DNA of 64,000 nucleotides. Origin: Amylostereum areolatum. Its lineage: Eukaryota; Basidiomycota; Agaricomycetes; Russulales; Stereaceae. Made by a program: the position numbers and the translations under genes. The notes under the pieces are model-generated. The model did not search any database. It saw only the letters and a list, made by a program, of their open reading frames with translations, and was not told the DNA's origin. The stretch is taken from the NCBI GenBank assembly GCA_012932865.1, contig SAXG01000001.1, forward strand, positions 2,593,693-2,657,692, in the 5' to 3' direction. Shown piece after piece: positions 24,969-59,832 of this stretch (the stretch's first letter is position 1; every line of letters starts with the position of its first letter).

Positions 24969-27148
24969 TGTCAGATCAAAAGTGGGTTTAAACACTTTCC
25001 TAGATATATCGGGTTTTCCTCTTTCCCAGATGATACCTAGTTGTTCGGGGGTTTAGGGAAATGTGTTAGGGGATATGCTACCAAAGGTTGCCTTTCCTTC
25101 CAATTGTTTTTCCAAACAATGGGGGGGGGAATGTGTAAGGAGACGGTCACGGTAGACGGGCTCGGTACACGGACGGACGTGGAGATACTGAATCTACCTT
25201 TCAGTGATAGACACAATATATAGAGAACGGAACTTAGATTATAACTTGACTTGCAGAGACTGAAACTTGAACTTGGATTGAACGGGGGACTAAACTGGGA
25301 CTGAAACTAACTTGAGAACTGAGAGAGAACTAGCTGAAAACTGACTTGATCGTGGGAACTGGGGACTACTGAATAACTGGGTGATGGGAACTTCTTGGGT
25401 ATGGAACTTGGTACGTTATCTATCTCTGATGCCTGAAGCAGGGCCTTTATATAGTGCTCTAGCTTTGTTTGTGCACTGTTCGTTGTTGGCTATGCAAGGG
25501 CAGTGCAGTCCTGCCTCATGAGCAATCAACGCAGCCGTATCAGTGCCACACAGGCAACGTAGCCTTTTCTGATCTGCGGCTATGCTGACTACTTAAGGCA
25601 GTGCAGCGTTGAGAGAGGGGAGGATGGCAAACATAACCAAGGCGTACGTAGAAGTATGACATAGAGGGGGGGAGAGACAGTAAGCGACACGAGACAGCAC
25701 AACCAGAGCCGGTAATCGTACAACGAGGCAAGCTAATCTAATAAGGACATCAACAAACGGAGTGCAGATAAGAAAGGCCTAGGTGAAGAGTCAGCTCCTA
25801 CTGGCGAGTGTATAACCCAGCCTCCCTGTTCCGTCCTACCTCCGCCACCCGCTCCTGAACCTCGTGCGAGAGCTGGACCATGGCATCGTACTTTGCCTCA
25901 GCGATCAGCTAGGAGAGTGCCGTCTCCACCGTCTCGTACGAGTTGGGATAGATTGCGTGCCGGATACGCTTGAAGTATCTAGCTACTTCGTCTATGGGCG
26001 TCCAGGGATCTATCTTGTATATGCCTGGCAGATATGTTGAGGTAGGTGGACAAGCAGTGTATGGGGGTTGAGCGGCGTACCTGTGGCATTTCCCCAAGGG
26101 GGAAACACGAATACCGAGTACCCCTCGCACCCAGTGGCGTAGTAAAGCATCTGGGGGAGGTGGCGATCGACGAGACGGGCGATTGCTACAGCGACTTGCG
26201 AGGGGGGACCGATAAGACCGTCGCGACGAAGGTTGAAAGTCCAGTACCAGTCGGCGGCGATGGAACTGGAGACTGGGGTGTTGGGCTCGAGGTTGAGCGT
26301 CCAGTTGATATTGCAGATGATGAACACGATTAGTTCTGGTGGCAGGTTAGTGTGTGTTGCGAACAAGACAGACAGTGACGCACCAGCGGAGGTATGATTC
26401 CGCACTCGTCCTACATAGATCGCGCTCTGTCCGTCGCTCCCAAGGCACTCGCCGGCCGTTGCGTAGTAATGGAAGCCACATCCAGTGACGGCTTCGACGA
26501 GCATGGCGGGTCCGAGCTGCTGTGCCTTTCCCTCCACGATCCATAGACCATTTATCTCGACGGGGCCGGTGGACGGGTTAGGTCCCCATCCCGCGTTAAG
26601 GGCCTCATTGGCCTCCAGCCACTGCTGGTGCGAGGCGTCGTCCTTGACCAGTTTGGCCAGAACCTTGGCCCGTGTGGTCGCCATGTCGTCGCGGGCCTGA
26701 TAGGAAGGAATGGATGGAACCATATAGGGGTGGTTAATCAGCCTGTTCGACAAGACAGGATCGTAAATTACGTCGTCGACGTGGCCTTGGTGGGAGCGTA
26801 GGTGGGCGTCCAGGATTCGTGCCGAGGTGTACGGGTCGGGAGATGCTGACTGGCGTGTCGAGGGTGGAGCGGTTGAAGAGGGAAGGGGGGCAAACAGGCT
26901 GCTGGCAGGGGAGGAGGAGCTTTGCATGGTGTGAGAGATGGGGGGAACAAAGAGGGAGGTGTCTGCGTGCCGCCTGCCTATACGCTGCGGGATCAGCCTT
27001 CTGGATCTGCATTCTATTTTGGGCTTCTTGGATGCCGATCTTCGGTGTTTTCTTTGTCCGGCCCTTCCTGTCTCCGGGTGACTCTGCTCTGGCTATTACC
27101 TGGTTGTTGTCTGTCCTGTCCCGCCCATAACCATTTGTGGGCGTGACA
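24969..27148 (-). repeat. 5' LTR of element C (2,180 bp)
   Basis: Same length and, in every frame compared, the same sequence as 10154-12333. Its TATA box (25453-25445) would drive the genomic RNA, and its U3 holds a second copy of the embedded gene. Confidence 0.92.
25909..26927 (-). CDS. Spliced U3 gene of element C (5' LTR copy)
   Basis: Identical to the copy at 11094-12112: ATG 26927, introns 26336-26383 and 26025-26080, TAG at 25909. This copy lies upstream of the R start, so it would be absent from genomic RNA and expressed, if at all, from its own upstream sequences. The ~220 bp before it carry no clear TATA box. Confidence 0.5.
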
Positions 27149-33325: not shown

Positions 33326-33339
33326 AGCACAGGTAGTCT

Positions 33340-33575
33340 GCTTTTCTCCGCGACGCACTTGTCGAGTGAAAGGGGGAGCTCGCTGATTGGCTGGCTAAGC
33401 AACCTTATCGGGGCAGTGCAATGGCTTGCTTTACGCGCCAGAATACCTTAATATCGAGCTATGTATATTTAGAAACAATATTATTTGCGTAAGATCAACA
33501 TTCAACGTGCTCGCGATTGCACTGTCTCCTTCACCCACGGCGATCCTCTGCAACCCTTCCCATTCTATCGCTACC
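33340..33575 (+). other. 5' flank of the DUF6589 gene in D-left
   Basis: About 240 bp between the terminus and ATG 33576. The frame before the ATG is open but reads like untranslated leader. A CT-rich leader precedes the ATG. No clear TATA box at the expected distance, though an AT-rich run lies near 33465-33490. Confidence 0.4.
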
Positions 33576-36500
33576 ATGGCACGAAAGGCCGTCAACAAAA
33601 ACAGTAAGCGTGCTCTTCAAGGACGACAGAAGCGGATGGACGACTGTTTGGCGCAGATCAAACGAAAAAAACTTCACGCTCTTCGAGTTCCTCGAAGAAC
33701 TCCTCCTCCCATGCAGAAAGGACGACCCTAGGCGATCCAAAATACGCACATCGATGCTCCGTTCCCTTCTCGCTGGCCGCAAGAACAGTCCGTCTCGGAT
33801 CGGGAGGATTGCGGACCTCATATACGATCACCCATACAGCAAACCTCGCCGCACCCGGACCTCCACCAATCGCTCAGCTGCCGATGCCTCCCGTCGCAAT
33901 CATCGACTCATGGCCCGTTGGCGCCTTCTCGACTGGGCAATCGGGAAGGTCGAAGGCGTTCTCAGCGGAGAGGCTGCCGACTTGACGTCGAAGGCCGGCG
34001 GGTTGCACTCGTCGAACACGACAAGCAACTGGGAGGCCGTTCTCGGCTTTTCAATGCGCAATTTCCTCCTGCACATCCAGCAGAAAGCCCCTGTTCTCCT
34101 CCACCTCCTTATTGCTATCGCATTCAAGGATAAAAACTGGCCGCAGCGGGACGCGGGTTCAACTTCCTGGCTACCTTCGTATACCGGTCATTTCTCTGCG
34201 CCGATCTCCTCCGGGACGGGCAACAACCCTCGCGATCCTTTTATGGTGCGCCTATAGCCCGTTTCTCTCCGTTCGTTCTCACTAACATACCTGTATCCAT
34301 AGATGGTCCTCGCTGCCGCTCTCGTTCTGTTGAACGCGCGAAACCGGCGTTTCAACCTCTTTCAGAAAATCGTCGGCATGTGGATGTTTTCGCATACAGC
34401 CCCCCATGGAATGTACGCAGTTCTCGGACGTTTGGGCCTGTCTGTGTCCTATACATCAGTTCTCTCCTTTCTTCAAGTCCTTTCTCGATCCGCGCTCGAC
34501 GAGATGCGCCAGGAGGCCACCCTCCACGCGTTCCTTCTCATATACGATAACATCAATCGTATGTCTCGCTCGTGGAATCCTGAGCTTGGAAAAAAAGACA
34601 CCATCCACAATGGCACCGCTGCAACTATGGTCGAGCTCGAAGACTGTGATGTTCGCAAGGCTTTCAACATCGAAGCTTTGGCGGCAGCAAGACGTGAGGA
34701 GCGCCGTCGAGGGCTGACACTGGCCAAACTCCGTGGGCAAATCAAATGGGACAAGCTGGATGCTGTGATGGCTCTCCACTGCCTCAATATGCTTGTCGAC
34801 GCTGTTCCTTGCCTCACCTCGCACCGCGAAACCATACTCCGACATATCCGTACCACGCACGCCATGCACCGCATGCCCGACGGGCGCAAGACGAAGATAC
34901 ATCCTATGGCCACTTCCGACTACAACGAGGGCAACACAGGCGAGAATGCGAACGTCCTCGATGACCTCCTCCTACGCCAGCTCAACTTGCCAAAAGAAGA
35001 GATTGTGCAGCTTTTGGTTATCGTCGGGGGGGATCAATCCACGGTGGAGAAGCTTCGTACACTGCAAAAGTTCCTTGCCGACTGTCCTCACGGCTACCAA
35101 CGTTATGGGTGGGTGCTACCCTTGATTCAGTTATGGCACATGGGCTGGGCCGACCTTGAGAGGATTCTCGCAACCCACTGGGGCGTTTCGCACAGCGACC
35201 TCACCTCATTTGTCGTGATGAATAACATCTTCGGACGAAAAGTCACCAACTCAAAACGGCCGGATTACTACCCAGCCCAACATCTAGTCTTCGACACGCT
35301 CATGGCCGCGATTATTGATTGTTGGAGGTGTGTATCTACGGGTATTTTCCGAAAGCTTGCACTGACTTCGTCTTCAGAACTCACCTTGGTGTTGACGACC
35401 TCGAGGCATACTTCGCCAGTCATCCGATGACATTCGATGATCTCCTCAAAATGGCTACCGAGATAACCACTCTGTACCTAAAGACGGAGGGCGTTATGCG
35501 GGCTCGGTACGGAAGTGAGACGGGAGCGGAGGATGACTTCAAGGCATTTGACACACAAGCTAACATCCCGACTGAGGCAGACCCATCCGATGCCGCCAAC
35601 GCGCCGACTACCCCCGCTCCTTCATCGAGTGACAAGGGTGGCGATGGTGTACCACCGGGTGAAAGGTCCCCCTTCATTGGTGATCAAGTTCTCGCCAACG
35701 AGATTCTTCGCATGCGTGATAGTATGTGGCACTACGTCTTCCAATGGGCAGTTAGTGATGGAGACATTGGCCATGCAATGAACATTATGGCGGTATGTAA
35801 CCATTGTTTCCTATTACCTTTCTCACCTCGCTCATGGACGCATCAGATCTGGACCTTCACATTTATGGGATGTGGGAAGACCAAGTACACGAACGAGCTG
35901 CTCGAACTGGCGTGCAACTTCCTAATGGAATACTCGCCGGAACTCTGCTTAGCTATCATGAACAACTGGCTATGCAATCTCACTGGTAACGTGGGCTGCC
36001 ACTTCCCCATGGACCTGCTACAAGAAAAGAACATCAAACGTCTCAAGCAGATGTCCCAGCGTCGCGACACATCGTTCGGAGGCGACTTCTTCAAGAATAT
36101 TGTGGCCCTCAACATCCGCGCATTCCTCCTCTCGATTCGATCTATGAAATTGGCCGTCCGACTCGGGGAGAAGAGTGAATCTCATACAGCAAAAAAGTGT
36201 GCGGCAGCCTTGAACGAAGGCAGCAAAAAGATGGCGGCCGCTCAGATCCACAAGTTCTGCGAGGGGCGTAGTGCAGGCCGCCGTGCTCAAGACGACTTTG
36301 GAACCGGGTTTCAAAAGTTCAAGTTGGGTACTCGGATCCAGGACTTTGTCGAGCGAACCATTCGCGATGCCGGGGATCTCCACGGCGCAGACTCTGTAGC
36401 CATTGAGAACGAGGATGCCGACGAGCGTACAGCAGCGGAGAGTTCACCGGGAGTACTGCCCAACATGATCATTGACGGGGTTCTTGTTGCGGCTGATGAC

Positions 36501-36608
36501 TGGGATGACGACAATGATGGTTCGGGGCCAGGTGATGATGAACAGGTCAATATATTTGGTGTAGACACCGTCAACAGCGGAGAATCGTCTTCGAGCGACG
36601 AGGACTAG
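33576..36608 (+). pseudogene. DUF6589-family protein, candidate transposase (D-left copy, frameshifted)
   Basis: Same four exons as the intact copy in D-right: 33576-34245, 34303-35327, 35378-35792, 35847-36608. Here the A-run at 33665-33671 has seven A instead of six, which throws the frame 30 codons after the ATG. The rest of the gene is undamaged. The only other coding change I found is Ile for Val in exon 2 (near 34670). This single homopolymer change could be a genuine null mutation or an assembly error. If real, only D-right supplies the protein. Confidence 0.8.
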
Positions 36609-36697
36609 TACGGGTGGGGAGAGTATGGTAATATCATAACAGATAGAATACTAGAGGGATGGACTATATACATATAAGTAAAGCACATTACATGGGT

Positions 36698-39318
36698 TTA
36701 TTTCCGAGATGTGACGGGGCGCGGACGAGGACGCGGACACGGTTTATTGGCGGGACCAAACATTGGAGCAGGGATTATTGGAAGGTGGGAAAGGGATGAG
36801 TCCGTAGTATTGATCCTCCGAGAGGGCGAAAGAGCCTACCCAAAGATTAACACAAGACCGCATGAGAAGGTTAAAGCACATACCATGATGTTTAGAGCAG
36901 GAGTGTGTCGTGGCGATTTGGCAGGTGGATACTCAAGACTGTCGAGAGCATCCGCAGCCCGTTTTACACCTTGTACTATCTAGACGTCAGTGGGGTACCA
37001 GGGGGACAGAGTGACAGAGTGCGGTACTCACGACTCGGAGCTTGTTCGTCAGTGGGTTCGGGAACAACCAACTTCACCCGCTTGATCTCCGTCAACCCGT
37101 TCTTGAGAAGGTATTCATGGACGTCTTCCTCGTCTTTCCGGGCGCGTTTTGCTGCAGTGTTAGTCCGCTGTTTCCGATTATCTTCTGTACGCCTCTCCTC
37201 CACTCGTCGACGCATCTCCTTGACTAGCGGCTCCACTACCTTCCAAAGCCCACCACCATACAGATCCCACCACTCCCAACCCTGCATACGTTGCGCGAGA
37301 TCGTCGAGGGCTTGAATCTGATGAAAGCGCGCCGTGATCATTGTCTTGATCTCCCCGTCCGAGAGGAAGCACTCATCGTCGATCCAACTGAGTTCAAGTG
37401 GACGCGGTGGTGGTGATGGCAGAAGTGGTGGCTGCAATTGTGAGGCTGAAGGATCTGTAGATGTACGCTTGGATAAAGCAGAGGGGGGCGGTGAAGGGGT
37501 GGAGAGCATGAGACGGGGAATGGCTCGACGCAGCTCCAACTTCACATGTTTGATGTCCCTGGTATTGAGTCGTTTCCATCGACAGCTGTCGTCCGGTGCT
37601 TCGTCAAGCTTTTGCTTGCCCGTTGATTCACGAAGTGGGCACGGCTCCGGTACAGTGTCGCCCGCACACGAGCTGCACTTGCCACAGTTCTCCAAGGTCC
37701 CAGGGTCGCCATAGATGACGTTCATTTGTCGTGAGAGGCAAGTACCACGTGTATGGGCAGCGACAAGGAGGAGGAACAACTTGTCAAGGCCTTTGAAGGT
37801 AGAAGTGGAAGGAGTGTTTGTGGCTTGACTCTGAGAACCAACCTTCGACTTCGTGTTCCCACGAAGACGAGATTGATCACGCGTCTTGCTGCTATCTTCC
37901 TCGTCGACATCCATCTTGTCCTCTCTATTCTCTGAGTCGGATCCAGAATGTCTGTGCCGTTCAGTGGCCAGCATCTCCACATCCCCCCCCACATGCTCTT
38001 CGGAACGCAAGGGTAACATCCGCGGGTCTGGCGTCTCTTGCAGTGCGTACTCCCGAGCTGTTTCGACCACGGCTTTTTTGACATAGACATACGCTTTGCC
38101 CCGTCCTGGAATGTTGCGAACATTCCGTCCCATCCGTTGCTTGGACGCCGCGGCACTTGTTCCTGTTGGAAACTCGATGGTTTCACGTACATCTGGAGGG
38201 TCCACGCCAACGTCCAGAATGGCTGTCGTTACGAAGATGGATGTGTCGCGATCGGGTTCCATACGGAAAAGCGACTCCAGGCCTTCTTTTTTGCATTCCG
38301 GACAGCAGACGGAGTGTAGGTGACGGATGAGGATTCGGGCTTGCGGCTGAAGACAAGTGGGGAGCAATGACCGGAGGTAGGCGGTAACACGGTGCCCAAG
38401 CTCGATAGTCGGACAGTAGATCAGACGTTTGGGTATGTCCATCGCATTCATCATACTTGCAGGTACTAACCAATCAAGGTCTCTGAATATGCTGCTGGTG
38501 AACGTGTACATCACATAGCGGAAGATGATGTCAATGTTCGTCCGCCGCATGTCTCGTTTGTCGAAGCGAAACCTCCCTTCGTCAAATCCAAGGTTCTCGC
38601 AGATGCGCCTGGTTTGTGCGCCTGGTTCTACACTTGCGGATAATGCAACCAAGGTGAGATTCGGGACCAGTGAATGGATGGTTTTGATTTCCCTGTAGAG
38701 CGGTCGGAATTCGGATCCCCACTGGTCGGAAAGATGAGCTTCATCCACAGTGAGTACACGCCATCGTGAACAAAAAAGCTCGTTCTTGATCAGCTCTTTG
38801 AACCTCTCTGTTTGTAGGGACTCCGGTGCTAGGGTTACGACCTGGTATCGACACTCCTTAACCTCTTGCCATAGGTCGCGACTGGCCAAAGAGGCCGCTG
38901 CAAGTGTATCGCCGTTGATGACCAGTGATTTCACACCCTTTCGGTCGGTGTTCATTGCCTGCCAGGAATAGTATGAGTGGTGTTGACATTCCTAAAGGCT
39001 TGTTCGTACCAAGCTTCGCTCGAGAAAGTTGGTTGGCTCGATAACAATGGTGACCATCTCCTTTTGCACGATGGCTGGCACATATATCAAGGCTGACTTT
39101 CCATCCCCTGTCGCAGTGATACAGAATACATTCTGACCATTCAGGATGCATGCAGAATTGTAGAGCTGGAATTCTCGAAGGGGAAAATCTATATGCGGTG
39201 CGACGGCAGCCTTGATTTTTTCGAGGCCTTCAGGAGATGTCCAGTCGAAGGTTCGAGCATTATTTCTAGCAGACATTAGTATGATCCATAGAATAAATAA
39301 AAAGAGTGTGTTTTGCAT
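36698..39318 (-). CDS. RecQ-type DNA helicase (D-left copy)
   Basis: Exons 39318-39010, 38958-37032, 36975-36884 and 36835-36698 encode 821 residues. SF2 motifs: Walker A TATGDGKS (69-75), DEAH (175-178) within VDEAHLSDQW, motif III LSAS (~210), motif V TTAILDVGVD (347-356) and motif VI QRMGRNVR (377-384). A RecQ zinc-binding-like cluster (CLSRQMNVIYGD...CGKCSSC) follows near 490-520. The C-terminus is Ser/Pro-rich, then charged. No HRDC domain. One substitution (PPPRPLEL versus PPLRPLEL) distinguishes it from D-right. RecQ enzymes unwind DNA 3'-5'; a role in transposition is inference from linkage. Confidence 0.85.
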
Positions 39319-39595
39319 GTATGTGCTCTTGCTCTATTGATTGTGCACCGTTGATGTTGAGGTCGGCGTCAACTGGCACTTAGTGAAACTGACATGTCCT
39401 CTTATCGGTTATTGGGATTAAAAAACTATTCTGCACATGATCTGCCGAGGTCCGGCAACAGGCACTAATCACGCTCCCTTGGACACTCGATAACAACGCC
39501 CGTAATGGAAGCAGACGCCAGATAAGAGGATCCTGAACTTGAGAAGTGTTGACGAATTATCTCGTCTGCCTCTGGGAGACTACCCGCATCACGTA

Positions 39596-40679
39596 CAGCT
39601 GTTTCCGAAAAGCTTGGAATCCGCGTCTCGCGCCCGCGAAAAATATGAAAAATACCGAAAACCCTGGAAATACTAGAAACTACGTAGACAGTCTGAACGC
39701 ATACATACAGCATGCCTACAATAGCGATGATGGTCAAGGAGGGTATATATGCATGATTGAACCATCTTTAGGTGACGAGGGAAGGATTATCCGGGATTAT
39801 CGAGCGCGGCGGTCATGCTCGAGTCCACAACCACGACCTGACCACGACATCCTGTTTCCCTCGTCAAACCTCGACTTCTTCCCGCTTTTCCCCTCCACAA
39901 TCCTTTTTGACGACACTGGTCCTGTGCCTATACTTTTAGATTGATCCGTGGTCCGCTGAAGCAACTGCCCGTCGTCGTCTTTCCCCGGCCACCTCGAGGG
40001 TCGATGCATCCTCAACGCTCAACAGACAACACATTTAGACTGTCGGTGTCTCGAACATTACGCGGCACAGAACCCCAAGTGCCCATCCTTGAAGGCGAAC
40101 ATCTGATCTGCAAGCATTGTTTGGCTAGCGGGGGAGTGGGTGTGCAGGATGATGGGGAGTGGCTATCGGTGCGCACTTACCTTCTGTACACACTCCCAAT
40201 GTATCCTTCCTTCTACGCTATCCCAATGGTGAATGCCCTGTCTCGTCCGGGAATACCATGTTCGTACGACGTTCACTTTCCCGTGCGTGAATCCCCGGAC
40301 CCCAATGCCAGCCGATGCCCTGCACACTTCTCCGCCCCTCCCTGCTCTAAGTGTCCTCTTTTCCGTGAGCAATGTCACCCTTGGTATTCCAACCCACACC
40401 ATGACCATTCCATTCCCGGAAATCTACGTCGAGGACGTTGTCAGCCACGTTGCGCTGTCCGTTACCCGATGAATACTGTCACCAGAAACAACGGCGCCGC
40501 CGCTCGTTGACTACACACCGTCTCACATATGACTTCCGGCATACTTCACCCAGTTGTACCGTACTTTTATGTGAGCTAGCGGGGCTGAGACGGAGCTGTA
40601 TGTATTTTAAGGATTTGGGGGGTTTTTCATATTTTTCGCGAGCGCGAATCGCGGATTCCAAGCTTTTCGGAAACAGCTG
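39596..40679. mobile_element. Mariner-like non-autonomous element with ~57-bp terminal inverted repeats
   Basis: Arms at 39596-39652 and 40623-40679 are inverted copies with about three to four mismatches. Both start CAGCTGTTTCCG and are flanked by TA (39594-39595, 40680-40681), the target duplication of Tc1/mariner/pogo elements. The 1,084-bp unit encodes no transposase I recognise, so it would depend on one in trans. Confidence 0.65.
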
Positions 40680-41102
40680 TACAAAGAGGATCCTGCAGGT
40701 GCGATGACTGGAAGCCTGCCGCTGGTTGCGTCCAAGGATTCGACGTTTGCCATTCAGAATGGGGGTTGATGCCAGTGGCAGGCCGGCAGGCCGTCCGTCG
40801 AGAGATGAGGAGACCTGGTGACTATATGCCGTACACAAGAAGTACTTGGAAGTACTGGCTGTGCTGCAATTCCTGGTCTCGAAGAGAACAGGCTTTGACT
40901 TGAGGCTCTCCTTCCCGATATGGTATCATCGCCCAAAACGACAGTGTCGTTTTTTTCCCCCTTCCTCTTTCGTTTCTCTCGGCTCCTCCGGACCGCTCGT
41001 CATTCACAGCCGTCGCTCATCTCTTTCTTTGCCTGCCGTTTCCCTTCATCTGCTCATCTCGCGGGCCCCCTTTTTCCTGCTCACCCTCCGCGCATCATTT
41101 CT

Positions 41103-41711
41103 ATGGGGAACGATCAATCGACCTTGACGTCCGAGTCTTTTTCTCCTTCTTCAACGTTGCTTGGCAAACGCCCCTTTCCCGACCACCCATTTCCGTGCTT
41201 TGTGCGCCCTCACACGCACACTCCCCATGCGTTCTCGACCTCTCACCCATCTCACATCTTCTTGTCTGACTCGCCACAGTTGCAGTACCTGATGTTTTCA
41301 CATCACCTCCCGCGTCCGCCACTGTGTCCGCTCCTGCACTGGAAGCCGAAGCACAACACGTCTCATCACCTTCCTCCTCCTCCCCTCTCTCGGACACCAC
41401 CCCCCACATGTCGGGTCCTGACCATCTTACGCAACCAGTTTCATCACCCTCTGTCTCCCGTGTCGATGCCTCTACATCCACCTCCACACCCGTCACACCA
41501 TCTGCCGGTGCACTGGTTCGCTCGAACGACATACCATGCAGTCTGTCGACTGGTACGTCACAACTTACATGTCCTTTCGACCCATACTGATGCACGCGCT
41601 CTTTCTTTTCCTTCTTTCATTGACGCTTTCTTCGCCTGCCCCGCTTGCACGTTACCCTGACTTCATGCACGCTCTCCACGTTCGCACGCACATCATCCTG
41701 ACTTCACTCAC
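41103..41711 (+). pseudogene. Possible displaced 5' end of the Helitron-type gene
   Basis: ATG 41103 opens a Ser/Thr-rich frame. A second frame (41324-41590) is also Ser/Pro-rich, consistent with short introns that I could not place. The 3' end abuts AGCACAGG (as complement) beside D-right. Undoing the inversion puts it directly upstream of 33325. No conserved domain seen, so its link to the Helitron gene rests on position only. Confidence 0.25.
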
Positions 41712-41983
41712 CCTGTGCTTAGTCTCCCAGAGGCAGACGAGATAATTCGTCAACACTTCTCAAGTTCAGGATCCTCTTATCTGGCGTCTGCTTCCATTAC
41801 GGGCGTTGTTATCGAGTGTCCAAGGGAGCGTGATTAGTGCCTGTTGCCGGACCTCGGCAGATCATGTGCAGAATAGTTTTTTAATCCCAATAACCGATAA
41901 GAGGACATGTCAGTTTCACTAAGTGCCAGTTGACGCCGACCTCAACATCAACGGTGCACAATCAATAGAGCAAGAGCACATAC

Positions 41984-44604
41984 ATGCAAAACACACTCTT
42001 TTTATTTATTCTATGGATCATACTAATGTCTGCTAGAAATAATGCTCGAACCTTCGACTGGACATCTCCTGAAGGCCTCGAAAAAATCAAGGCTGCCGTC
42101 GCACCGCATATAGATTTTCCCCTTCGAGAATTCCAGCTCTACAATTCTGCATGCATCCTGAATGGTCAGAATGTATTCTGTATCACTGCGACAGGGGATG
42201 GAAAGTCAGCCTTGATATATGTGCCAGCCATCGTGCAAAAGGAGATGGTCACCATTGTTATCGAGCCAACCAACTTTCTCGAGCGAAGCTTGGTACGAAC
42301 AAGCCTTTAGGAATGTCAACACCACTCATACTATTCCTGGCAGGCAATGAACACCGACCGAAAGGGTGTGAAATCACTGGTCATCAACGGCGATACACTT
42401 GCAGCGGCCTCTTTGGCCAGTCGCGACCTATGGCAAGAGGTTAAGGAGTGTCGATACCAGGTCGTAACCCTAGCACCGGAGTCCCTACAAACAGAGAGGT
42501 TCAAAGAGCTGATCAAGAACGAGCTTTTTTGTTCACGATGGCGTGTACTCACTGTGGATGAAGCTCATCTTTCCGACCAGTGGGGATCCGAATTCCGACC
42601 GCTCTACAGGGAAATCAAAACCATCCATTCACTGGTCCCGAATCTCACCTTGGTTGCATTATCCGCAAGTGTAGAACCAGGCGCACAAACCAGGCGCATC
42701 TGCGAGAACCTTGGATTTGACGAAGGGAGGTTTCGCTTCGACAAACGAGACATGCGGCGGACGAACATTGACATCATCTTCCGCTATGTGATGTACACGT
42801 TCACCAGCAGCATATTCAGAGACCTTGATTGGTTAGTACCTGCAAGTATGATGAATGCGATGGACATACCCAAACGTCTGATCTACTGTCCGACTATCGA
42901 GCTTGGGCACCGTGTTACCGCCTACCTCCGGTCATTGCTCCCCACTTGTCTTCAGCCGCAAGCCCGAATCCTCATCCGTCACCTACACTCCGTCTGCTGT
43001 CCGGAATGCAAAAAAGAAGGCCTGGAGTCGCTTTTCCGTATGGAACCCGATCGCGACACATCCATCTTCGTAACGACAGCCATTCTGGACGTTGGCGTGG
43101 ACCCTCCAGATGTACGTGAAACCATCGAGTTTCCAACAGGAACAAGTGCCGCGGCGTCCAAGCAACGGATGGGACGGAATGTTCGCAACATTCCAGGACG
43201 GGGCAAAGCGTATGTCTATGTCAAAAAAGCCGTGGTCGAAACAGCTCGGGAGTACGCACTGCAAGAGACGCCAGACCCGCGGATGTTACCCTTGCGTTCC
43301 GAAGAGCATGTGGGGGGGGATGTGGAGATGCTGGCCACTGAACGGCACAGACATTCTGGATCCGACTCAGAGAATAGAGAGGACAAGATGGATGTCGACG
43401 AGGAAGATAGCAGCAAGACGCGTGATCAATCTCGTCTTCGTGGGAACACGAAGTCGAAGGTTGGTTCTCAGAGTCAAGCCACAAACACTCCTTCCACTTC
43501 TACCTTCAAAGGCCTTGACAAGTTGTTCCTCCTCCTTGTCGCTGCCCATACACGTGGTACTTGCCTCTCACGACAAATGAACGTCATCTATGGCGACCCT
43601 GGGACCTTGGAGAACTGTGGCAAGTGCAGCTCGTGTGCGGGCGACACTGTACCGGAGCCGTGCCCACTTCGTGAATCAACGGGCAAGCAAAAGCTTGACG
43701 AAGCACCGGACGACAGCTGTCGATGGAAACGACTCAATACCAGGGACATCAAACATGTGAAGTTGGAGCTGCGTCGAGCCATTCCCCGTCTCATGCTCTC
43801 CACCCCTTCACCGCCCCCCTCTGCTTTATCCAAGCGTACATCTACAGATCCTTCAGCCTCACAATTGCAGCCACCACTTCTGCCATCACCACCACTGCGT
43901 CCACTTGAACTCAGTTGGATCGACGATGAGTGCTTCCTCTCGGACGGGGAGATCAAGACAATGATCACGGCGCGCTTTCATCAGATTCAAGCCCTCGACG
44001 ATCTCGCGCAACGTATGCAGGGTTGGGAGTGGTGGGATCTGTATGGTGGTGGGCTTTGGAAGGTAGTGGAGCCGCTAGTCAAGGAGATGCGTCGACGAGT
44101 GGAGGAGAGGCGTACAGAAGATAATCGGAAACAGCGGACTAACACTGCAGCAAAACGCGCCCGGAAAGACGAGGAAGACGTCCATGAATACCTTCTCAAG
44201 AACGGGTTGACGGAGATCAAGCGGGTGAAGTTGGTTGTTCCCGAACCCACTGACGAACAAGCTCCGAGTCGTGAGTACCGCACTCTGTCACTCTGTCCCC
44301 CTGGTACCCCACTGACGTCTAGATAGTACAAGGTGTAAAACGGGCTGCGGATGCTCTCGACAGTCTTGAGTATCCACCTGCCAAATCGCCACGACACACT
44401 CCTGCTCTAAACATCATGGTATGTGCTTTAACCTTCTCATGCGGTCTTGTGTTAATCTTTGGGTAGGCTCTTTCGCCCTCTCGGAGGATCAATACTACGG
44501 ACTCATCCCTTTCCCACCTTCCAATAATCCCTGCTCCAATGTTTGGTCCCGCCAATAAACCGTGTCCGCGTCCTCGTCCGCGCCCCGTCACATCTCGGAA
44601 ATAA
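41984..44604 (+). CDS. RecQ-type DNA helicase (D-right copy)
   Basis: Exons 41984-42292, 42344-44270, 44327-44418 and 44467-44604, with introns of 51, 56 and 48 nt and clean GT-AG ends. The intron 3 acceptor choice at 44326 is forced, since the alternative at 44322 soon meets a stop. 821 residues. Motifs as in D-left: Q-motif-like FPLREFQLYNSACILNGQNVF, Walker A with K74, D175-E-A-H, motif VI arginines, and the RecQ zinc cluster. The first 15 residues are hydrophobic; ATG 42026 (MSARNN) is an alternative start without them. The gene points outward-in, with its 5' end near the element terminus. Confidence 0.88.
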
Positions 44605-44693
44605 ACCCATGTAATGTGCTTTACTTATATGTATATAGTCCATCCCTCTAGTATTCTATCTGTTATGATATTACCATACTCTCCCCACCCGTA

Positions 44694-47600
44694 CTAGTCC
44701 TCGTCGCTCGAAGACGATTCTCCGCTGTTGACGGTGTCTACACCAAATATATTGACCTGTTCATCATCACCTGGCCCCGAACCATCATTGTCGTCATCCC
44801 AGTCATCAGCCGCAACAAGAACCCCGTCAATGATCATGTTGGGCAGTACTCCCGGTGAACTCTCCGCTGCTGTACGCTCGTCGGCATCCTCGTTCTCAAT
44901 GGCTACAGAGTCTGCGCCGTGGAGATCCCCGGCATCGCGAATGGTTCGCTCGACAAAGTCCTGGATCCGAGTACCCAACTTGAACTTTTGAAACCCGGTT
45001 CCAAAGTCGTCTTGAGCACGGCGGCCTGCACTACGCCCCTCGCAGAACTTGTGGATCTGAGCGGCCGCCATCTTTTTGCTGCCTTCGTTCAAGGCTGCCG
45101 CACACTTTTTTGCTGTATGAGATTCACTCTTCTCCCCGAGTCGGACGGCCAATTTCATAGATCGAATCGAGAGGAGGAATGCGCGGATGTTGAGGGCCAC
45201 AATATTCTTGAAGAAGTCGCCTCCGAACGATGTGTCGCGACGCTGGGACATCTGCTTGAGACGTTTGATGTTCTTTTCTTGTAGCAGGTCCATGGGGAAG
45301 TGGCAGCCCACGTTACCAGTGAGATTGCATAGCCAGTTGTTCATGATAGCTAAGCAGAGTTCCGGCGAGTATTCCATTAGGAAGTTGCACGCCAGTTCGA
45401 GCAGCTCGTTCGTGTACTTGGTCTTCCCACATCCCATAAATGTGAAGGTCCAGATCTGATGCGTCCATGAGCGAGGTGAGAAAGGTAATAGGAAACAATG
45501 GTTACATACCGCCATAATGTTCATTGCATGGCCAATGTCTCCATCACTAACTGCCCATTGGAAGACGTAGTGCCACATACTATCACGCATGCGAAGAATC
45601 TCGTTGGCGAGAACTTGATCACCAATGAAGGGGGACCTTTCACCCGGTGGTACACCATCGCCACCCTTGTCACTCGATGAAGGAGCGGGGGTAGTCGGCG
45701 CGTTGGCGGCATCGGATGGGTCTGCCTCAGTCGGGATGTTAGCTTGTGTGTCAAATGCCTTGAAGTCATCCTCCGCTCCCGTCTCACTTCCGTACCGAGC
45801 CCGCATAACGCCCTCCGTCTTTAGGTACAGAGTGGTTATCTCGGTAGCCATTTTGAGGAGATCATCGAATGTCATCGGATGACTGGCGAAGTATGCCTCG
45901 AGGTCGTCAACACCAAGGTGAGTTCTGAAGACGAAGTCAGTGCAAGCTTTCGGAAAATACCCGTAGATACACACCTCCAACAATCAATAATCGCGGCCAT
46001 GAGCGTGTCGAAGACTAGATGTTGGGCTGGGTAGTAATCCGGCCGTTTTGAGTTGGTGACTTTTCGTCCGAAGATGTTATTCATCACGACAAATGAGGTG
46101 AGGTCGCTGTGCGAAACGCCCCAGTGGGTTGCGAGAATCCTCTCAAGGTCGGCCCAGCCCATGTGCCATAACTGAATCAAGGGTAGCACCCACCCATAAC
46201 GTTGGTAGCCGTGAGGACAGTCGGCAAGGAACTTTTGCAGTGTACGAAGCTTCTCCACCGTGGATTGATCCCCCCCGACGATAACCAAAAGCTGCACAAT
46301 CTCTTCTTTTGGCAAGTTGAGCTGGCGTAGGAGGAGGTCATCGAGGACGTTCGCATTCTCGCCTGTGTTGCCCTCGTTGTAGTCGGAAGTGGCCATAGGA
46401 TGTATCTTCGTCTTGCGCCCGTCGGGCATGCGGTGCATGGCGTGCGTGGTACGGATATGTCGGAGTATGGTTTCGCGGTGCGAGGTGAGGCAAGGAACAG
46501 CGTCGACAAGCATATTGAGGCAGTGGAGAGCCATCACAGCATCCAGCTTGTCCCATTTGATTTGCCCACGGAGTTTGGCCAGTGTCAGCCCTCGACGGCG
46601 CTCCTCACGTCTTGCTGCCGCCAAAGCTTCGACGTTGAAAGCCTTGCGAACATCACAGTCTTCGAGCTCGACCATAGTTGCAGCGGTGCCATTGTGGATG
46701 GTGTCTTTTTTTCCAAGCTCAGGATTCCACGAGCGAGACATACGATTGATGTTATCGTATATGAGAAGGAACGCGTGGAGGGTGGCCTCCTGGCGCATCT
46801 CGTCGAGCGCGGATCGAGAAAGGACTTGAAGAAAGGAGAGAACTGATGTATAGGACACAGACAGGCCCAAACGTCCGAGAACTGCGTACATTCCATGGGG
46901 GGCTGTATGCGAAAACATCCACATGCCGACGATTTTCTGAAAGAGGTTGAAACGCCGGTTTCGCGCGTTCAACAGAACGAGAGCGGCAGCGAGGACCATC
47001 TATGGATACAGGTATGTTAGTGAGAACGAACGGAGAGAAACGGGCTATAGGCGCACCATAAAAGGATCGCGAGGGTTGTTGCCCGTCCCGGAGGAGATCG
47101 GCGCAGAGAAATGACCGGTATACGAAGGTAGCCAGGAAGTTGAACCCGCGTCCCGCTGCGGCCAGTTTTTATCCTTGAATGCGATAGCAATAAGGAGGTG
47201 GAGGAGAACAGGGGCTTTCTGCTGGATGTGCAGGAGGAAATTGCGCATTGAAAAGCCGAGAACGGCCTCCCAGTTGCTTGTCGTGTTCGACGAGTGCAAC
47301 CCGCCGGCCTTCGACGTCAAGTCGGCAGCCTCTCCGCTGAGAACGCCTTCGACCTTCCCGATTGCCCAGTCGAGAAGGCGCCAACGGGCCATGAGTCGAT
47401 GATTGCGACGGGAGGCATCGGCAGCTGAGCGATTGGTGGAGGTCCGGGTGCGGCGAGGTTTGCTGTATGGGTGATCGTATATGAGGTCCGCAATCCTCCC
47501 GATCCGAGACGGACTGTTCTTGCGGCCAGCGAGAAGGGAACGGAGCATCGATGTGCGTATTTTGGATCGCCTAGGGTCGTCCTTTCTGCATGGGAGGAGG

Positions 47601-47725
47601 AGTTCTTCGAGGAACTCGAAGAGCGTGAAGTTTTTTCGTTTGATCTGCGCCAAACAGTCGTCCATCCGCTTCTGTCGTCCTTGAAGAGCACGCTTACTGT
47701 TTTTGTTGACGGCCTTTCGTGCCAT
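44694..47725 (-). CDS. DUF6589-family protein, candidate transposase (D-right copy, intact)
   Basis: ATG 47725. Exons 47725-47057, 46999-45975, 45924-45510 and 45455-44694, with introns of 57, 50 and 54 nt. The last intron keeps the frame, so it may be retained. 956 residues, matching the basidiomycete DUF6589 family by its YDNIN, GGDQST and YTNELLEL-type landmarks. Conserved acidic residues D305 (LIYDNINR), D467 (VIVGGDQST) and E763 (MDLLQEKNIK) are spaced like a DDE/RNase H-fold catalytic triad with a large helical insertion, as in hAT-like transposases. That role is inference, supported by its place in a unit with 8-bp target duplications. The C-terminus is acidic (SSSDED). The N-terminus is basic and may bind DNA. 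Confidence 0.8.
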
Positions 47726-48097
47726 GGTAGCGATAGAATGGGAAGGGTTGCAGAGGATCGCCGTGGGTGAAGGAGACAGTGCAATCGCGAGCACGTTGAA
47801 TGTTGATCTTACGCAAATAATATTGTTTCTAAATATACATAGCTCGATATTAAGGTATTCTGGCGCGTAAAGCAAGCCATTGCACTGCCCCGATAAGGTT
47901 GCTTAGCCAGCCAATCAGCGAGCTCCCCCTTTCACTCGACAAGCGCATCGCGGAGAAAAGCAGACTAGATGCGGGTACCCCATCTTTATACGTTACTCAC
48001 ACTTCTGCAAACGTAGCAGCGGGAGTACGGCACAAGGCATTCCATTGACCGTCAAAAGTGAGCTCCTTGCCCCTCGTCACGATGCTTCCTCATTCCA

Positions 48098-50949
48098 GTG
48101 ACTTTCTTGCGTGAAGTTATCCAAGGGCATGATTTCCCGCGCATCTGGATCTTCAAACGCCGGGGACGATTTTTTGTTGAGGTGACCGTCGACAAGAGCA
48201 AGAAGATCACGGCAATTTCGAAAGGGGATAGTGGCCCACTATGGAACGAAACACTCCACGATTTGTGGGTCCAGCTCTGTGTTTTCGAAACGTCTGGCTG
48301 GCTTTAATTTGAGGTCCCTGTCAGATCAGCACAAACGTCGTCCTCGCTCATGGTGGAAGTATATGCAAAACAGACGATGTTGAAGAATATATGCATCGGA
48401 GGATTCGAGATTCCACACGTACTTGGTCTGCCACAGAGCGAAGGTGGGTCGAACTGCCTCTTTTTCACCCTTTCTGCCTGCCAAACAGGAAAAAATCCTC
48501 TGCAGAGCATATCACGCGTATCCTCCGTGCATTCGGCCGCCAGAGATCAACGATTGGGACAGCCTCCCTCGATTTAATCATCGCGAGGCCTTCGAATGCT
48601 CCCGCCGAGAGAACCAAGGGAGTGGACAGCCCGATTCCTGCCACAGAGGACGCCCCAGAAGGTCTCGAAAGAGCAGAAGTATTCGCGATGAATACCTCAC
48701 GGGCCGTGCGAAAAACGAGTTCCTACACTGTGAACGTACCACAGACTACCCTCTCTTCTGTCGAAGACGTCAAGCTGGGTCCTGGTTCCGTCGGTCGTTC
48801 TACAATCAGCGCAGACAACGCGCCTCCAGGTGCCCCGAGCACGACTGAAGAATTGCGACAAGCTGTAGACGCCATGCACATCCCCCGCTTTCTTGGCGGT
48901 GCCGGTTCTTTCGTCGACACTGCGCAGACCACGTTTGGGGGCTTGGCTTCCTTCTCGGATACATGGAAGCCGTTCTGGGAGAAGGTCGGCATCTGCGTGA
49001 ACCTAGCAGATGGCATCGCGGAGGTACGTTTCTGAGATCGATGGCTACCTTTAGATTGACGGAATCTCTCTTAGATTCATCCATACGCCCGGATCGCGTG
49101 GGACGTTCTCTCCTTCATTCCGAAGGTTGGTGGTGTCTTTTTATAACACGATGTCGGTGCTTATTGTGTTGGTTGCCCGGTTTGGTCAGACCCTTTCGGC
49201 GCAGGTTGAACGCGACAAAAATGTCATTGAGCTTCTCAATGCCATTGATGGAGCCTATGACTTTGTCAAGCAAGCCATGTCCCTCGAAAACCGGAAGGAG
49301 GCTCTCCTCGACGGCCAAAAGACGCTGCTCGCAGGCATCGTGAAACAAATCACCGAGTGCGCATATTTCATACTCGACTACGCGAAGGATACCAATTTCT
49401 GTGAGACGTTTCGTCTGCTGTTGCTCTACAAGTCCCCAGTACTTACACAGTCGCTCTCGTTAGAGAGACGCACCTTCAGGAACGCCGTCCTCAGCGAGGT
49501 CGATGCTCGGAGGCAAGCATATCTGGACAAACTCGAGGAGCTCAAGAAGGATTTCCAAGGGCACGCGGTCATGACAACCGAGGTCACCGTTTTCCGCGTC
49601 CTGGATACCGTCGAAGACATTTTGAATGACCTCAAGGAGCACGGTGAGCCCTACATATTCTCGTCTCTATCAACCTACTTACGAACGTACGATAGATATC
49701 GACTCAAAGCTGGAAACCATCCCGTACGTCGGTGCAGGCTTCCAGCCTAACAACGAGGGTTGTCTGCCAGGTACTCGCGAAGCATTTCTGAAGGACATCG
49801 AGGAATGGGTCAATGACCTGGACAGCGAGCAACGTGTCTGCGTCATCTTCGGCCAAGCAGGGACCGGCAAATCTTCCATCGCACATGAGGTGGCTCGTCG
49901 ATTCGAGCAACTCAAACGCCTCGGATCTTCATTCTGCTTCAACCGCGTCGATCAGACCGCCCGTAGTCCTCAGCGCCTGTTTTCCAACCTTGCACGAGAT
50001 CTGGCCTACTGCGACCCACACTTCAAACAAGCATTATATCGGACCATCCGTGACGGCACACACCTCCGCCACCAAGATGATATCGCTTGGCAACTGGAGA
50101 ACCTAATTCTGCAGCCGATGAGAGAGTTGCATGTGGTCGGGCCGCTGGTTCTGGTTATTGACGCGTTGGACGACAGCGGGAACGAAGGCCTTCGGGAGAA
50201 GATGCTGGCAATATTGGCCAATAGACTGGCCAACATCCCGGCTTGCTTTCGCATTGTGATCACCTCAAGAGCCGAACCTGATATCACGGACATATTTGAT
50301 GCTTCAGACGTGTCGAAGCACATCCGCTTTCTTTATGTCCGTCGCATTCTCACCAGACGGAAAACACATTGTCTCTGGATCCTGGGATGGGAACATTCGC
50401 CTGTGGAGTTCGGAGACGTGCGAGGCCATCGGTGTGCCTCTGGAAGGCCACACAAACTGGGTTACATCCATCGCATTCTCACCAGACGGAAAACACATTG
50501 CCTCTGGATCCAGGGACAGGACCATTCGTCTATGGAGCGTGCACAATAAGCGAGAAGGTAAAGTGGAACTGTCCGACTTGCCAATGAGTCCAAGAGACAC
50601 TAACCGCTTTGAATCAGGCATCATTCTCTCCCGCAACCTGAGCCACGCCCTAGCCAATCCCGACATCCTACTTGGTTCTCCCTCCTCATCTGAAAATGAT
50701 CCCGAAAATGATCCCCGTGATCTGCTACATATACAGGAAGATGGCTGGCTTGTTGGCCCCGAGTCACAATCGCTGTTGTGGGTACCTGCCGAAATCCGCC
50801 AGCAAATGCATTTGCTTCGGGAAGATATGCTAATCGGCCAGCATGCGACGGATCTGGACCTTAGCGACTTTGCACACGGACCAAACTGGCACGAATGCTA
50901 TGTAGGTGGGGACGAGGTCAGCCATGGGAGTAGTCGAAGGACCTCTTAG
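48098..50949 (+). pseudogene. C2-NACHT-WD40 NLR-like (STAND) gene, degraded
   Basis: Exons with GT-AG introns at 48265-48324, 49024-49074, 49126-49189 and 49644-49695. The N-terminal part resembles a C2 domain (LREVIQGHDFPRI..., LWNETLHDL, LMVEVYAKQ). A fungal STAND effector-like region follows (IAEIHPYARIAWDVLSFIPK). NACHT has Walker A GQAGTGKSS near 49850 and Walker B LVLVIDALDD near 50155. Two near-identical WD40 repeats (SVAFSPDGKHI.SGS.D..IRLW) and the usual family tail (WLVGPESQSLLWVP) end it. Frame changes near 48420 (within C2) and at about 50327, where NACHT (KHIRF) fuses one base out of frame to a WD repeat. The missing winged-helix and most WD repeats indicate an internal deletion. 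The 5' end is near the D-right insertion. Such proteins are proposed non-self recognition receptors. Confidence 0.75.
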
Positions 50950-52763: not shown

Positions 52764-53220
52764 TGTCATGAACGGTCTATAATTTTCTTTTTACTTTACA
52801 TCGGTTACACGCTTTAGGACTTATCGACTTATCACCGGCCCGGCTCCACCTTGGCCCGGACCTGGCTCATCTATATCCCGCCCAGACCCACGTGACTCAT
52901 CTCGGTCCGGGTCTGACTCCTTTCTCTTGACTCATGCTGTACGATACTGACTCATGCTGTGCTCTTTTACATACGACTGCTTACTTATACTTGGTCTGCT
53001 TACTGATCGCCGTGTATTGGTTGCTTACCTAAGTCTCTCTCCTCTTGTGTATATAAGGCTCGCTCTCGCTGTACATATTCCTTATCTCGAGCTAGTCAAT
53101 TCTACCGACTTTGCTTGCTTTCCCTTGTCTGTCGCCGTGTCTGATCGGCTCCCCTCTGTCGTCCTCTTCCTCTGTCAGCTTTGTCGTAACTTGGTGCTGT
53201 CGCACTAGTCGTTGCTGACA
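52764..53220 (+). repeat. 5' LTR of element A2
   Basis: 457 bp. TATA box at 53050-53057, self-primer match at 53084-53093, and its complement at 53223-53232 just inside, all as in element A. Compared with its 3' partner it has TCACCGGCCC, GACCTGG and CCCAGACC variants. Confidence 0.96.
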
Positions 53221-53691
53221 TAAGCTCGAGATCTGTTTACTCTTGCACCACCCTACGACCGTCCCTACGTACTGTAGCGTAGTAGTAGTAGTACCCGTCT
53301 GGTACTGACCTTGTTCTTCCCCCGTGCCGCCCTAGACCGTTGCCCCCAGAGTACGCGACTCGTTACCCTGACATTGTGGTCGTGCGCACGTATACCGGTG
53401 CCGGCTTGACGTTTCCTCGAAACGTTACACCTACTCGAGACTCTCCAATACCAGGAGTTGAAAGCTCAGAGGTGACAGTAGAAGGTGCACCTTTGGTGTA
53501 GGAAACGAGTAAAAGCGGCGAAAGGAAAGCGGTTTAGGAAGTCTTTGGGCTCGTGTCCCCTAGACGAAGAGACAGCCAACAGGTCGAGAAGACTGAGGCA
53601 GACCGTCTTGCGATCTCATAACAGAACCACCTTCCCTCGACAAAATCTTCCCTTGCCGCACAGAGTAACCATTTCGACTGGGGGCTCGTGC

Positions 53692-54093
53692 ATGGAAGAT
53701 TGGCGCTCGCAAGTACAAGAATTCATCCCCATCAGCCACGACGCTATCATCTCCCTCATCAACGAATCTAAAGACCCTTGGGCCTGGCACAATTGGAAGG
53801 TCGCCCTCGGCGTAGAAGAACTTGAAGACTCCGTCATAGACATCCACTTCTATCGCCTCAAAATAAGCGAACAAGGAAACGGAAACCTCTACGTCTACTC
53901 CTGCCCATACGTCACCTACCGCTACAAACTCGAGCAACCCCCAAAATCCTTCTACGCACCCAACGAGAAAATACCAGTGGACACTCAACACACCCACCGC
54001 CTCCTTACACCAGGCAACACCCCCAGCCCCACACCAGAGCCAGAGGTCATCGACCTCACCCAGCCAGAGGTCATCGACCTCACCCACTTATAA
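53692..54093 (+). CDS. ORF0 of element A2
   Basis: 133 codons, colinear with 2284-2685, with a few amino-acid changes (for example Ile to Val in EDSVID and Arg to Gln in DTQH). The tandem PEVIDLT repeats and the TAA stop followed by ACA ATT are unchanged. It remains open although gag and pol here are broken. Confidence 0.65.
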   Translation: MEDWRSQVQEFIPISHDAIISLINESKDPWAWHNWKVALGVEELEDSVIDIHFYRLKISEQGNGNLYVYSCPYVTYRYKLEQPPKSFYAPNEKIPVDTQHTHRLLTPGNTPSPTPEPEVIDLTQPEVIDLTHL

Positions 54094-55657
54094 ACAATTC
54101 CCTCGTTCGGACTCAACGGCTCCGACTCCAGTTCTGACTCCGACACCGACGTTGAGGACGAAAACTGCTACATATATCCCCTCCCTCTAGGCTTCACTGA
54201 ACGAGGAAACGACTTCTTTGTCCAACTCGGAGACACCACTGTCGAAGTCGCCTTCGTAGCAACCCAAACAAGTGGCATCAGTTGGTACTTCGCCGACGAA
54301 AGCCAAGACGACCTCACTGAAACCGACTTCAACCTCATCGCCGCCTCCGCCCTACCGCCTGTCACCGACGAAGACTTCTCCGACCTCGACGAACCAATCA
54401 TGGCTGCCCAGTGGATCCGCACCAACCCCCAACCCCCTCTCCCCGTCGAACTTGCCAACTGCACCGAAATCGGTGGAACATGGAACATCGTCATCGGCCA
54501 AACTGGCTCTCCCATCCAACACATGAATAACGGCACCGACGATGCCTGGCTCATGGAAGTAAATGGCCAATGGGTCGCCATCCCTGCCGTGCTTGTTGCT
54601 GCCCTCAACCTGCCACCCCCCACCGTCAACGTCACGGCCCCCCCCATCACTGTCAACCCCCCTGCGGTCACTGTTAGTGCCCCAGCCACCGCCGCCGCCA
54701 GACCCCCCCGAAAGAAAGTCCACGCAAAAACTCCTGAAGGCTTCTCTGGGAAACGAGAGGACTTCAATGACTGGATGCGGTCGTGCGAGGAATACATGCG
54801 AGCCGCTGAGGATGACCTCGTGACGGACAAGGACAAAGTCCTCTTCATTCTCACCTACATGACGGGGGAGGCAGCACGCACCTGGAAGGCCGAGTATGAG
54901 GATGCACACTTGGCCAATGGAGCCATGGTCGCCTGGGTGGACTTCCACAAGGCACTCAAAGGGGCCTTCACCGACGTCAATGAGCAGCACCGTGCCGCAG
55001 TCGAACTGGACGGGTTCAAACAGACAAAGGGTACCACTGCCCATGAATACTTCGCCAAGTTCGAGCAACTCGCAAGGAAGGCAGGATACTCCACGGCGCA
55101 GGACCCTATCCACCTCATGCAGCTGCTCAAACACAACGTCTACTATCGGACCATCGACTCCATCTACGACAGCGGTCACGTTCCTCAGAAATACTGAGGA
55201 CCTCAAAGAGCGCATCATCCTGATCGACGGTCTGCGACAGGAGCGGGAGGACCTTAAGACCCAGCGCAGTGGACCCGTGCAGAACCAAAAACCCAAAGGA
55301 CAAGGATCGTCCAATGGGCAACAAGGGGGGCAGGTCCCATGGCGCCGCGATGGAACCGGCACGGTGCACGGTGGCAAAGGTCAGCCGATGGACGTCGACC
55401 GTGTCGACATCAAGGGGCGATGCTTCCGCTGCGGACAGAATGGCCACCAGGTGCGGGACTGCAGGGTGGACGTGAAGAACATCCGAGACATGTGGGGGAG
55501 GGACCGGTACACGGAACCACCAAAGCGGGAGGCTCGAGCACAGACGTTCGAGACACCCACTGCCTGGGCTAGGAGCCTGTCGGCCGAAGATCGGAAAAGC
55601 GTGATGGACGCGCTTCAAGCTCAGCCGAAGGGGGAGGAGAAGAAGGAGGGTTTTTGA
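54094..55657 (+). pseudogene. gag: Gag of element A2 (frameshifted)
   Basis: Matches element A gag from the post-ORF0 segment (no ATG until 54400) through the capsid. An extra C at about 55194 (AAATACTGAGG versus AAATATGAGG) creates an immediate stop at 55195-55197. The zinc knuckle and the GGGTTTT slippery site (55648-55654) follow in the shifted frame. Confidence 0.9.
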
Positions 55658-58600: not shown

Positions 58601-59832
58601 GACATGATCGCATTGCCGCTCCACTCCACCCACATGACCCGCCACAAGCGCCTTGGGAGCATGTATCCATCGACTTTGTCATGCCGCTCCCAGTCTCGGA
58701 TGGAAAAGACGCCATCTGCAATGTGAACTGCATGGGTACCAAGCAGGTTGTATTCTGGGCCACGACCAAAGACCTAACGGAGGACGAACTCGCCTTCGAG
58801 TACCTACGCGAGGTGGTCCCCCATCATGGAATTCCTAGAAAGATCGTCAGCGACCGTGGCAGCGTGTTTGTCTCCAAATTCACCACAGCATTGTTCCAAC
58901 TGTTAGGCATTGAAGGGAACCCGTCCACGGCGTATCACCCTCAGACGGACGGACAGACCGAACGCTCCAACATGACCATGGAAAACTACCTTCGCATCTT
59001 CGTCAATCAACGACAGGACAATTGGACACGTTACCTCCCACTTGCCATGACTGCACTCAACAACATGGTCCATAGTTCGATTGGGATGTCTCCCAACTTT
59101 GCCAACTATGGTCGGGAACTCTACCTGGGGACAAACCCTCGACGTGAGACAGACAACCCATCGGCGAACGAGTTTGCACAACGCATGCGAGACATCTATG
59201 AGGAAGCCCGCTCTGCGCTAAAGGCAGCACAGGACGATCAAAAGCGCTTTTACGATCGCAAGAAGGACGAACCAATAGATTACAAAATTGGCGACTTCGT
59301 CTGGCTGGAAGCCAAGACCAGAGATGGCCAAACCGTAATCAAAACGGCACGTCCTATGCAAAAGCTAGATGACAAGCGCTTTGGTCCTTTCGAAATCCTG
59401 GAAAAAGTCGGAGCATCGGCTTACAAGCTTCGCCTCCCTACATCCTGGTCACGAAAACATCCGGTCTTCAACGAGTCCCTCCTATCTCCACACAACGGTC
59501 CCGCCTTTGACAATCAGAAAGCACCTACACCTCCACCGCCAGAGTTAGTCCAAGGAGAGGAAGTCTATGAGGTCGAAAAGATTATAGACTCCAAGAAGGT
59601 TGGTCGCGGCTTCAAGTACCTCGTCAAATGGAAAGGCTACCCAGACAATGACAATACTTGGGAGCCTCTCACCAATCTCCAGAATGCCAAGAAACGCATT
59701 GACGACTTCCACCGTGAACATCTGGGTGCCCCGAAACCTGCACGCCTTAATCGTTGGAAACTCCTGTCGGAGGAAGAAACTGGATCTGATTACGACGAGG
59801 ACGTCGAATCTAAGGAAGGGGTGATGTCATGA
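55654..59832 (+). pseudogene. pol: Pol of element A2 (five frameshifts in the first third)
   Basis: Compared with element A, single-base insertions lie near 55944, 56440, 56691 and 56780, and a one-base loss in an A-run lies near 57063. All hit the protease-to-early-RT segment. From about 57060 to the stop at 59830-59832, RT (YLDD), RNase H, integrase and chromodomain are open and nearly identical to element A. No functional polyprotein can be made from this copy as sequenced. Confidence 0.92.

Follow-up and report, generated by a model that had tools for sequence, protein, structure and literature searches.

What are the two nearly identical, oppositely oriented 6.25-kb units that lie in a 64,000-nucleotide stretch of Amylostereum areolatum DNA (the window), each pairing a gene for a DUF6589 protein with one for a RecQ-type helicase? 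Our main reading, which we hold at a probability of roughly 0.85, is that of an autonomous DNA transposon of the DDE type, in which the DUF6589 protein would act as transposase and RecQ in a step after cutting. Self-comparison and end alignment placed copy A at 33334..39582 (forward strand, 6,249 bp) and copy B, inverted relative to A and with its transposase frame open, at 41720..47967 (reverse strand, 6,248 bp). Over 6,249 alignment columns the copies are 99.92% identical, with only four substitutions and a single-base indel in a run of A to separate them, which bears out the >99.9% identity claimed in an earlier note on this DNA. The precise termini described there also hold: both copies start with TAGTCT and end with AGACTA, and the exact inverted repeat covers 6 bp only.

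The 8-bp target sequences that the note had assigned to each copy are real, but they are swapped between A and B rather than paired around each copy. A is flanked by AGCACAGG on its left (33326..33333, forward strand) and CCCGCATC on its right (39583..39590, forward strand), and B, read in reverse, by CCCGCATC and then AGCACAGG; on the window's own strand the partners beside B appear as CCTGTGCT (41712-41719) and GATGCGGG (47968-47975). Computationally flipping the 2,137-bp spacer between the copies (39583..41719, unstranded, delimited by the flank exchange and by matches elsewhere) gives A and B each its own perfect 8-bp repeat. Recombination between A and B as inverted copies, after each had inserted, accounts for the swapped 8-mers, and the spacer was probably inverted at that later stage; an assembly flip at the A/B repeats would give an identical flank picture. 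At C138, left-flank pieces and reversed-middle pieces lie side by side, a thin support that fits inversion, and a search of the genome contigs found no empty site for the A/B pair. The spacer also holds a repeat of about 1.1 kb (39593-40682) with 81-bp inverted arms (88%), parts of which match C107 and C144.

Both genes were modelled from splice signals and homology. The DUF6589 (probable transposase) gene of B (44694..47725, reverse strand) has four exons and three introns (57, 50 and 54 nt) and encodes 956 aa, with D305, D467 and E763, the triad suggested previously, at exactly those positions; PF20231 spans residues 358-816 of this protein (Pfam, E 7e-114). Its four-exon counterpart in A (33576..36608, forward strand) is broken by an extra A at 33665, which cuts the transposase frame to 51 aa and is absent from the earlier note. 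The helicase gene of A (36698..39276, reverse strand) is convergent with it and, in a three-intron model of 805 aa, stops at 36698, reproducing the 89-bp gap to the DUF6589 stop that had been reported; an alternative one-intron model of this copy (749 aa, stop 36976) leaves 367 bp. In B the helicase gene occupies 42026..44604 (forward strand), its 44604 end computed by mirroring A, and the two RecQ proteins differ once, P607L, over the 749-aa model. A RecQ core, likewise proposed before, was recovered against TIGR00614 (E 2e-25, under the curated cut-off) and PDB RecQ-family chains (E 4e-13), together with the Pfam domains DEAD (2e-13) and Helicase_C (1e-4, just under cut-off). For the RecQ zinc-binding domain there was no Pfam match in the window protein, where the cysteines were read by eye, and matches in relatives were weak (P0065, E 0.0025; P0061, E 0.35).

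Searching the genome (57 Mb, 182 contigs) revealed related elements. C6 holds a full-length copy with 78% identity to A, and a sister family of six copies, 6,324 bp long and 99.79-99.87% identical to the C111 copy, shares 68-70% identity with A in matching pieces. Identity within the sister family ends at TAGTCT/AGACTA, where each copy has its own perfect 8-mer; the C113 copy was read at its left end only. All six autonomous copies with both ends read (five sister copies and C6) carry a perfect 8-bp duplication, each different. Short elements have only the ends in common with A: of the two compared in full, the 1,103-bp copy keeps 57 bp on the left and 116 bp on the right, the 1,078-bp copy 60 bp and 99-108 bp. 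Ten right-end places yielded six perfect 8-bp duplications and four cases with no left end in the piece read, and 19 further left-right pairs, picked from 23 unread close pairs, yielded 16 perfect 8-bp duplications, one of 7 bp and two pairs with none (one of them a 415-bp pair), so that an 8-bp duplication is present in 22 of the 25 short pairs for which both ends were located. Genome-wide counts are 43 for the left-end pattern (≤2 mismatches) and 126 for the right-end pattern (≤3 mismatches, hence a different stringency), with no matches for reversed controls; given this excess, many of the right ends may be solitary, or part of derivatives whose left end differs.

Unoccupied sites were sought with joined-flank queries, five of ten of which matched contiguously across the join (C6, 100%; sister C111, 98%; sister C141, 95% with 9 extra bases; two short elements, 96% and 83%) and five of which matched nothing. 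The duplications and empty sites anticipated in the earlier note are thus present in this genome, and precise insertion with a constant-length target duplication and unoccupied sites supports, at the level of sequence comparison, a DNA transposon; we take the window units to be recently active jumping genes. A candidate excision footprint at C181 (9 extra bases), the sole site so tested, gained no support from a doubled-target test. At C146:112684-113864 a short element has inserted 3 bp away from a second one's left end, and its duplication, GAGTAGTC, overlaps that end.

The ends have a shared architecture. The left-end module of A (33334..33385, forward strand, about 52 bp) recurs as an inverted repeat inside the right end (39467..39582, forward strand, 116 bp), which combines a 64-bp terminal part with the subterminal inverted module (39467-39518), that is, 64 + 52. 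The first 52 bases of A return inverted at this 64-bp offset with agreement at 29 of 52 positions, against a best of 28 and a mean of 20.9 in 2,000 shuffles, each scored at all offsets. The best offset is also 64 in C6 (28/50) and in the sister family (32/50), in unshuffled comparisons of sequences that are related to A and not independent of it. Among short copies the retained right end is 116 bp long at five places, mostly 108 bp elsewhere, and 81 bp at one place. These modules, left and inverted right, are candidate transposase binding sites. That short copies with nothing but the end sequences have spread with the same 8-bp duplications implies that the ends are recognised in trans.

Which protein would recognise them? 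The fold predicted for DUF6589 is RNase H-like, the outcome that the earlier note had favoured over an unrelated fold, and hAT Hermes is its top-ranked structural match; the predicted strand order of the core and its conserved D, D and E/D fit an RNase H-like core, making the protein the probable transposase of the element. A sequence profile of DUF6589 found nothing in the PDB up to E 10, and none of 39 homologues matched a Pfam transposase family at E ≤ 5 (a 39-row alignment from 55 homologues, 16 of them excluded, mostly as shorter or partial). PMC9587614 describes a C/DxxH motif between the second D and the last E in the group of Kolobok, hAT, P, MuDR and Dada. What is conserved in the DUF6589 alignment is CxH (C and H each in 36/39 rows) and QxxH (36/39, with a gap in 3), with DxxH at the first place in 17/39 rows; either place may be the counterpart of C/DxxH. 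The literature searched contained no mention of the name DUF6589, a statement that extends as far as that search.

We propose that the DUF6589 protein, with DDE chemistry suggested by its predicted fold and conserved residues, would bind the left module as well as the inverted module that lies 64 bp inward in the right end, cut at TAGTCT/AGACTA and join each end to the target at sites 8 bp apart, in a manner resembling hAT and P-type enzymes. RecQ would serve a step after cutting, the least certain part of the scheme. Its most likely task would be strand displacement during template-directed repair of the excision gap, through which the donor copy would be regained and copy number would rise; alternatively, RecQ might open the ends or clear the strand-transfer complex. 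BLM knockdown reportedly increased such repair in a human assay. By encoding its own RecQ, an element could tilt repair towards copying from a template, so that the donor copy is regained.

As far as present evidence goes, the element behaves as a hAT/P-type transposon does. Both hAT and P elements make 8-bp duplications, and they occupy the top rows of the structural comparison, sharing with the predicted DUF6589 structure the RNase H fold and an extended helical segment that precedes the last acidic residue. In contrast, there is no sequence match between them and the window element, and to our knowledge hAT (Hermes) and P elements have no RecQ gene and have other termini. For the hAT/KDZ-like type put forward previously, the predicted fold ranks Hermes first, while sequence gives no support (0/39 in Pfam transposase families). 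Elements of the KDZ group (Zisupton, Kyakuja, Dileera) resemble the window element in duplication length, Zisupton and a Dileera element having 8-bp duplications and occurring in Agaricomycetes according to PMC12730594, whereas the accessory gene discussed there is TET/JBP rather than RecQ. No KDZ transposase model was matched by the 39 homologues in a library that may lack one.

Helicase-carrying elements weaken the earlier claim that a RecQ gene makes an unusual pairing, since both KolobokH (RecQ) and AcademH (helicase) are published cases. Kolobok targets TTAA, whereas the window element duplicates 8 bp with no fixed sequence. KolobokH, reported from fungi alone (PMC9587614), carries RecQ with its transposase, and a relative from a rhodophyte, Kolobok-1_CCri, resembles the window element in having RecQ on the complementary strand; in KolobokH, however, the RecQ part lies downstream of the transposase domain, and in the window element it is a convergent separate gene.

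AcademH, an Academ lineage with a helicase, was reportedly described by Kojima (2020), with members in both animals and fungi. The element could belong to it, with DUF6589 as an Academ transposase and 8-bp duplications marking a new subgroup, a possible reading that we nevertheless consider doubtful. Like the window element, AcademH is a DNA transposon that encodes a helicase and occurs in Basidiomycota according to PMC10045372 and PMC10799480, the latter describing it as low-copy in Basidiomycota, Ascomycota and Mucoromycota, and DEAD and Helicase_C, both found here, are domains named there for the helicases of AcademH, KolobokH and Helitron. AcademH duplications, however, are reported as 9 or 10 bp (and those of AcademX as 3-4 bp, a contrast that the authors link to helicase and nuclease; PMC10045372), against 8 bp in 6/6 autonomous copies and 22/25 short pairs here, which sets the two apart by description. 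The named DUF6589 homologues, moreover, are basidiomycetes throughout (among 8,000 candidates that shared most words and were scored, a screen that misses distant relatives), and a nine-sequence profile search for animal and ascomycete relatives returned five proteins, all from Pleurotus, one of them the query's first member. Three of these groups each lack one tested mark in the window element: KolobokH the target, AcademH the duplication length and hAT the sequence model. Tentatively, and at a little under even odds, we regard DUF6589 as an undescribed eukaryotic DDE superfamily structurally near hAT/P, its elements in mushroom-forming fungi having a dedicated RecQ as a conserved second component and ends built from a left module and its right-end inverted copy at a 64-bp offset. 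Our main reading in itself suggests a function for a Pfam family of unknown function that has at least 58 matching loci in this genome, and adds an element with 8-bp duplications to the helicase-carrying ones, raising the question of whether RecQ-type helicases are a general solution in cut-and-paste transposition, for example in donor-gap repair. It is open to direct test, given that nearly identical copies exist along with short derivatives whose ends are defined.

The linkage of the helicase to DUF6589 bears on whether it takes part at all. Hand-grouping of match lists gave at least 58 DUF6589 and at least 48 RecQ-like loci; among the matches listed, 38 of the 48 RecQ loci have a DUF6589 locus no more than 8 kb away (uniform placement predicts 0.8) and 10 do not, 30 of the 38 pairs being convergent, 7 divergent and 1 on the same strand, so that the adjacent convergent gene looked for in the earlier note recurs well beyond the window. 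Five sister copies, seven of another family and likely duplicate contigs make the independent cases fewer than 38. The helicase might instead be a captured passenger with no role in transposition, and gene capture is known in fungal elements (TET/JBP, for example; PMC12730594); among the matches listed, 20 of 58 DUF6589 loci have no RecQ match within 8 kb. This alternative is unlikely in view of the linkage across deeply diverged copies, of the joint fall in identity of the two proteins to those of the window (Spearman 0.76 for 13 of the 38 pairs, those with identities listed for both; 0.70, p 0.011, with one duplicate dropped) and of a RecQ dN/dS of 0.12-0.13 in three comparisons. Between B and C6, dN/dS is 0.10 for DUF6589 and 0.13 for RecQ; between B and the sister family it is 0.125 for RecQ, with DUF6589 synonymous change saturated. 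These ratios show that both linked genes, RecQ included, have been under selection. In the protein database, P0056, the RecQ nearest to that of the window, and P0002, the second DUF6589 protein, are from Amylostereum chailletii, and the longest contig given for each has 7,019 bases, which suggests that they share one contig.

The broader claim of a DUF6589-linked transposon holds in that RecQ adjoins DUF6589 at most RecQ loci found, but some DUF6589 loci have no recognised ends. A blind scan for a duplication with inverted ends found no convincing ends at 12 other 10-kb DUF6589 loci; the scan was weak, recovering one of two positive controls and giving 0.4 hits per shuffled sequence at threshold. 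One candidate, at L049, was rejected with its 'ends' inside a single direct repeat of about 35 bases (about 1101-1136 and 6965-7000) that brackets a diverged DUF6589 and RecQ pair. Another, at L045 (17-5066), was set aside, its stretch excluding the DUF6589 match: it spans 5.0 kb, has inverted ends of 15 bp (CAGGCTGAACTACA...), is flanked by the 8-bp duplication AGCTAGCT and is apparently another transposon. Diverged DUF6589 genes at C128:834530, C170:60479, C145:122929, C66:430061, C111:360012, C70:23124 and C94:20596 have a head-to-head RecQ 2.3-2.6 kb away. A seven-copy DUF6589 and RecQ family (C23, C66, C95, C103 and C168), with near-identical scores and equal spacing, is probably another recently active element.

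Passive segmental duplication in retroelement-rich DNA, rather than transposition, would suit a window rich in LTR elements and other repeats, and three sets of other DUF6589 loci do form parts of long duplicated segments, but it is extremely improbable for this unit, given the sister family's sharp ends, individual 8-mers and unoccupied sites. Among the neighbouring repeats, two 7.5-kb LTR elements (1356-8869 and 52764-60281) with 457-bp LTRs are 99.0% identical, the first encoding a Ty3-type polyprotein with a chromodomain, and 2,180 bp of retroelement-rich DNA recur without any difference at 10154-12333 and 24969-27148. An open reading frame at 49626-50549, with a nephrocystin-3/NACHT-type NTPase domain and a 71-bp direct repeat near its end, is perhaps a fragment of a STAND gene.
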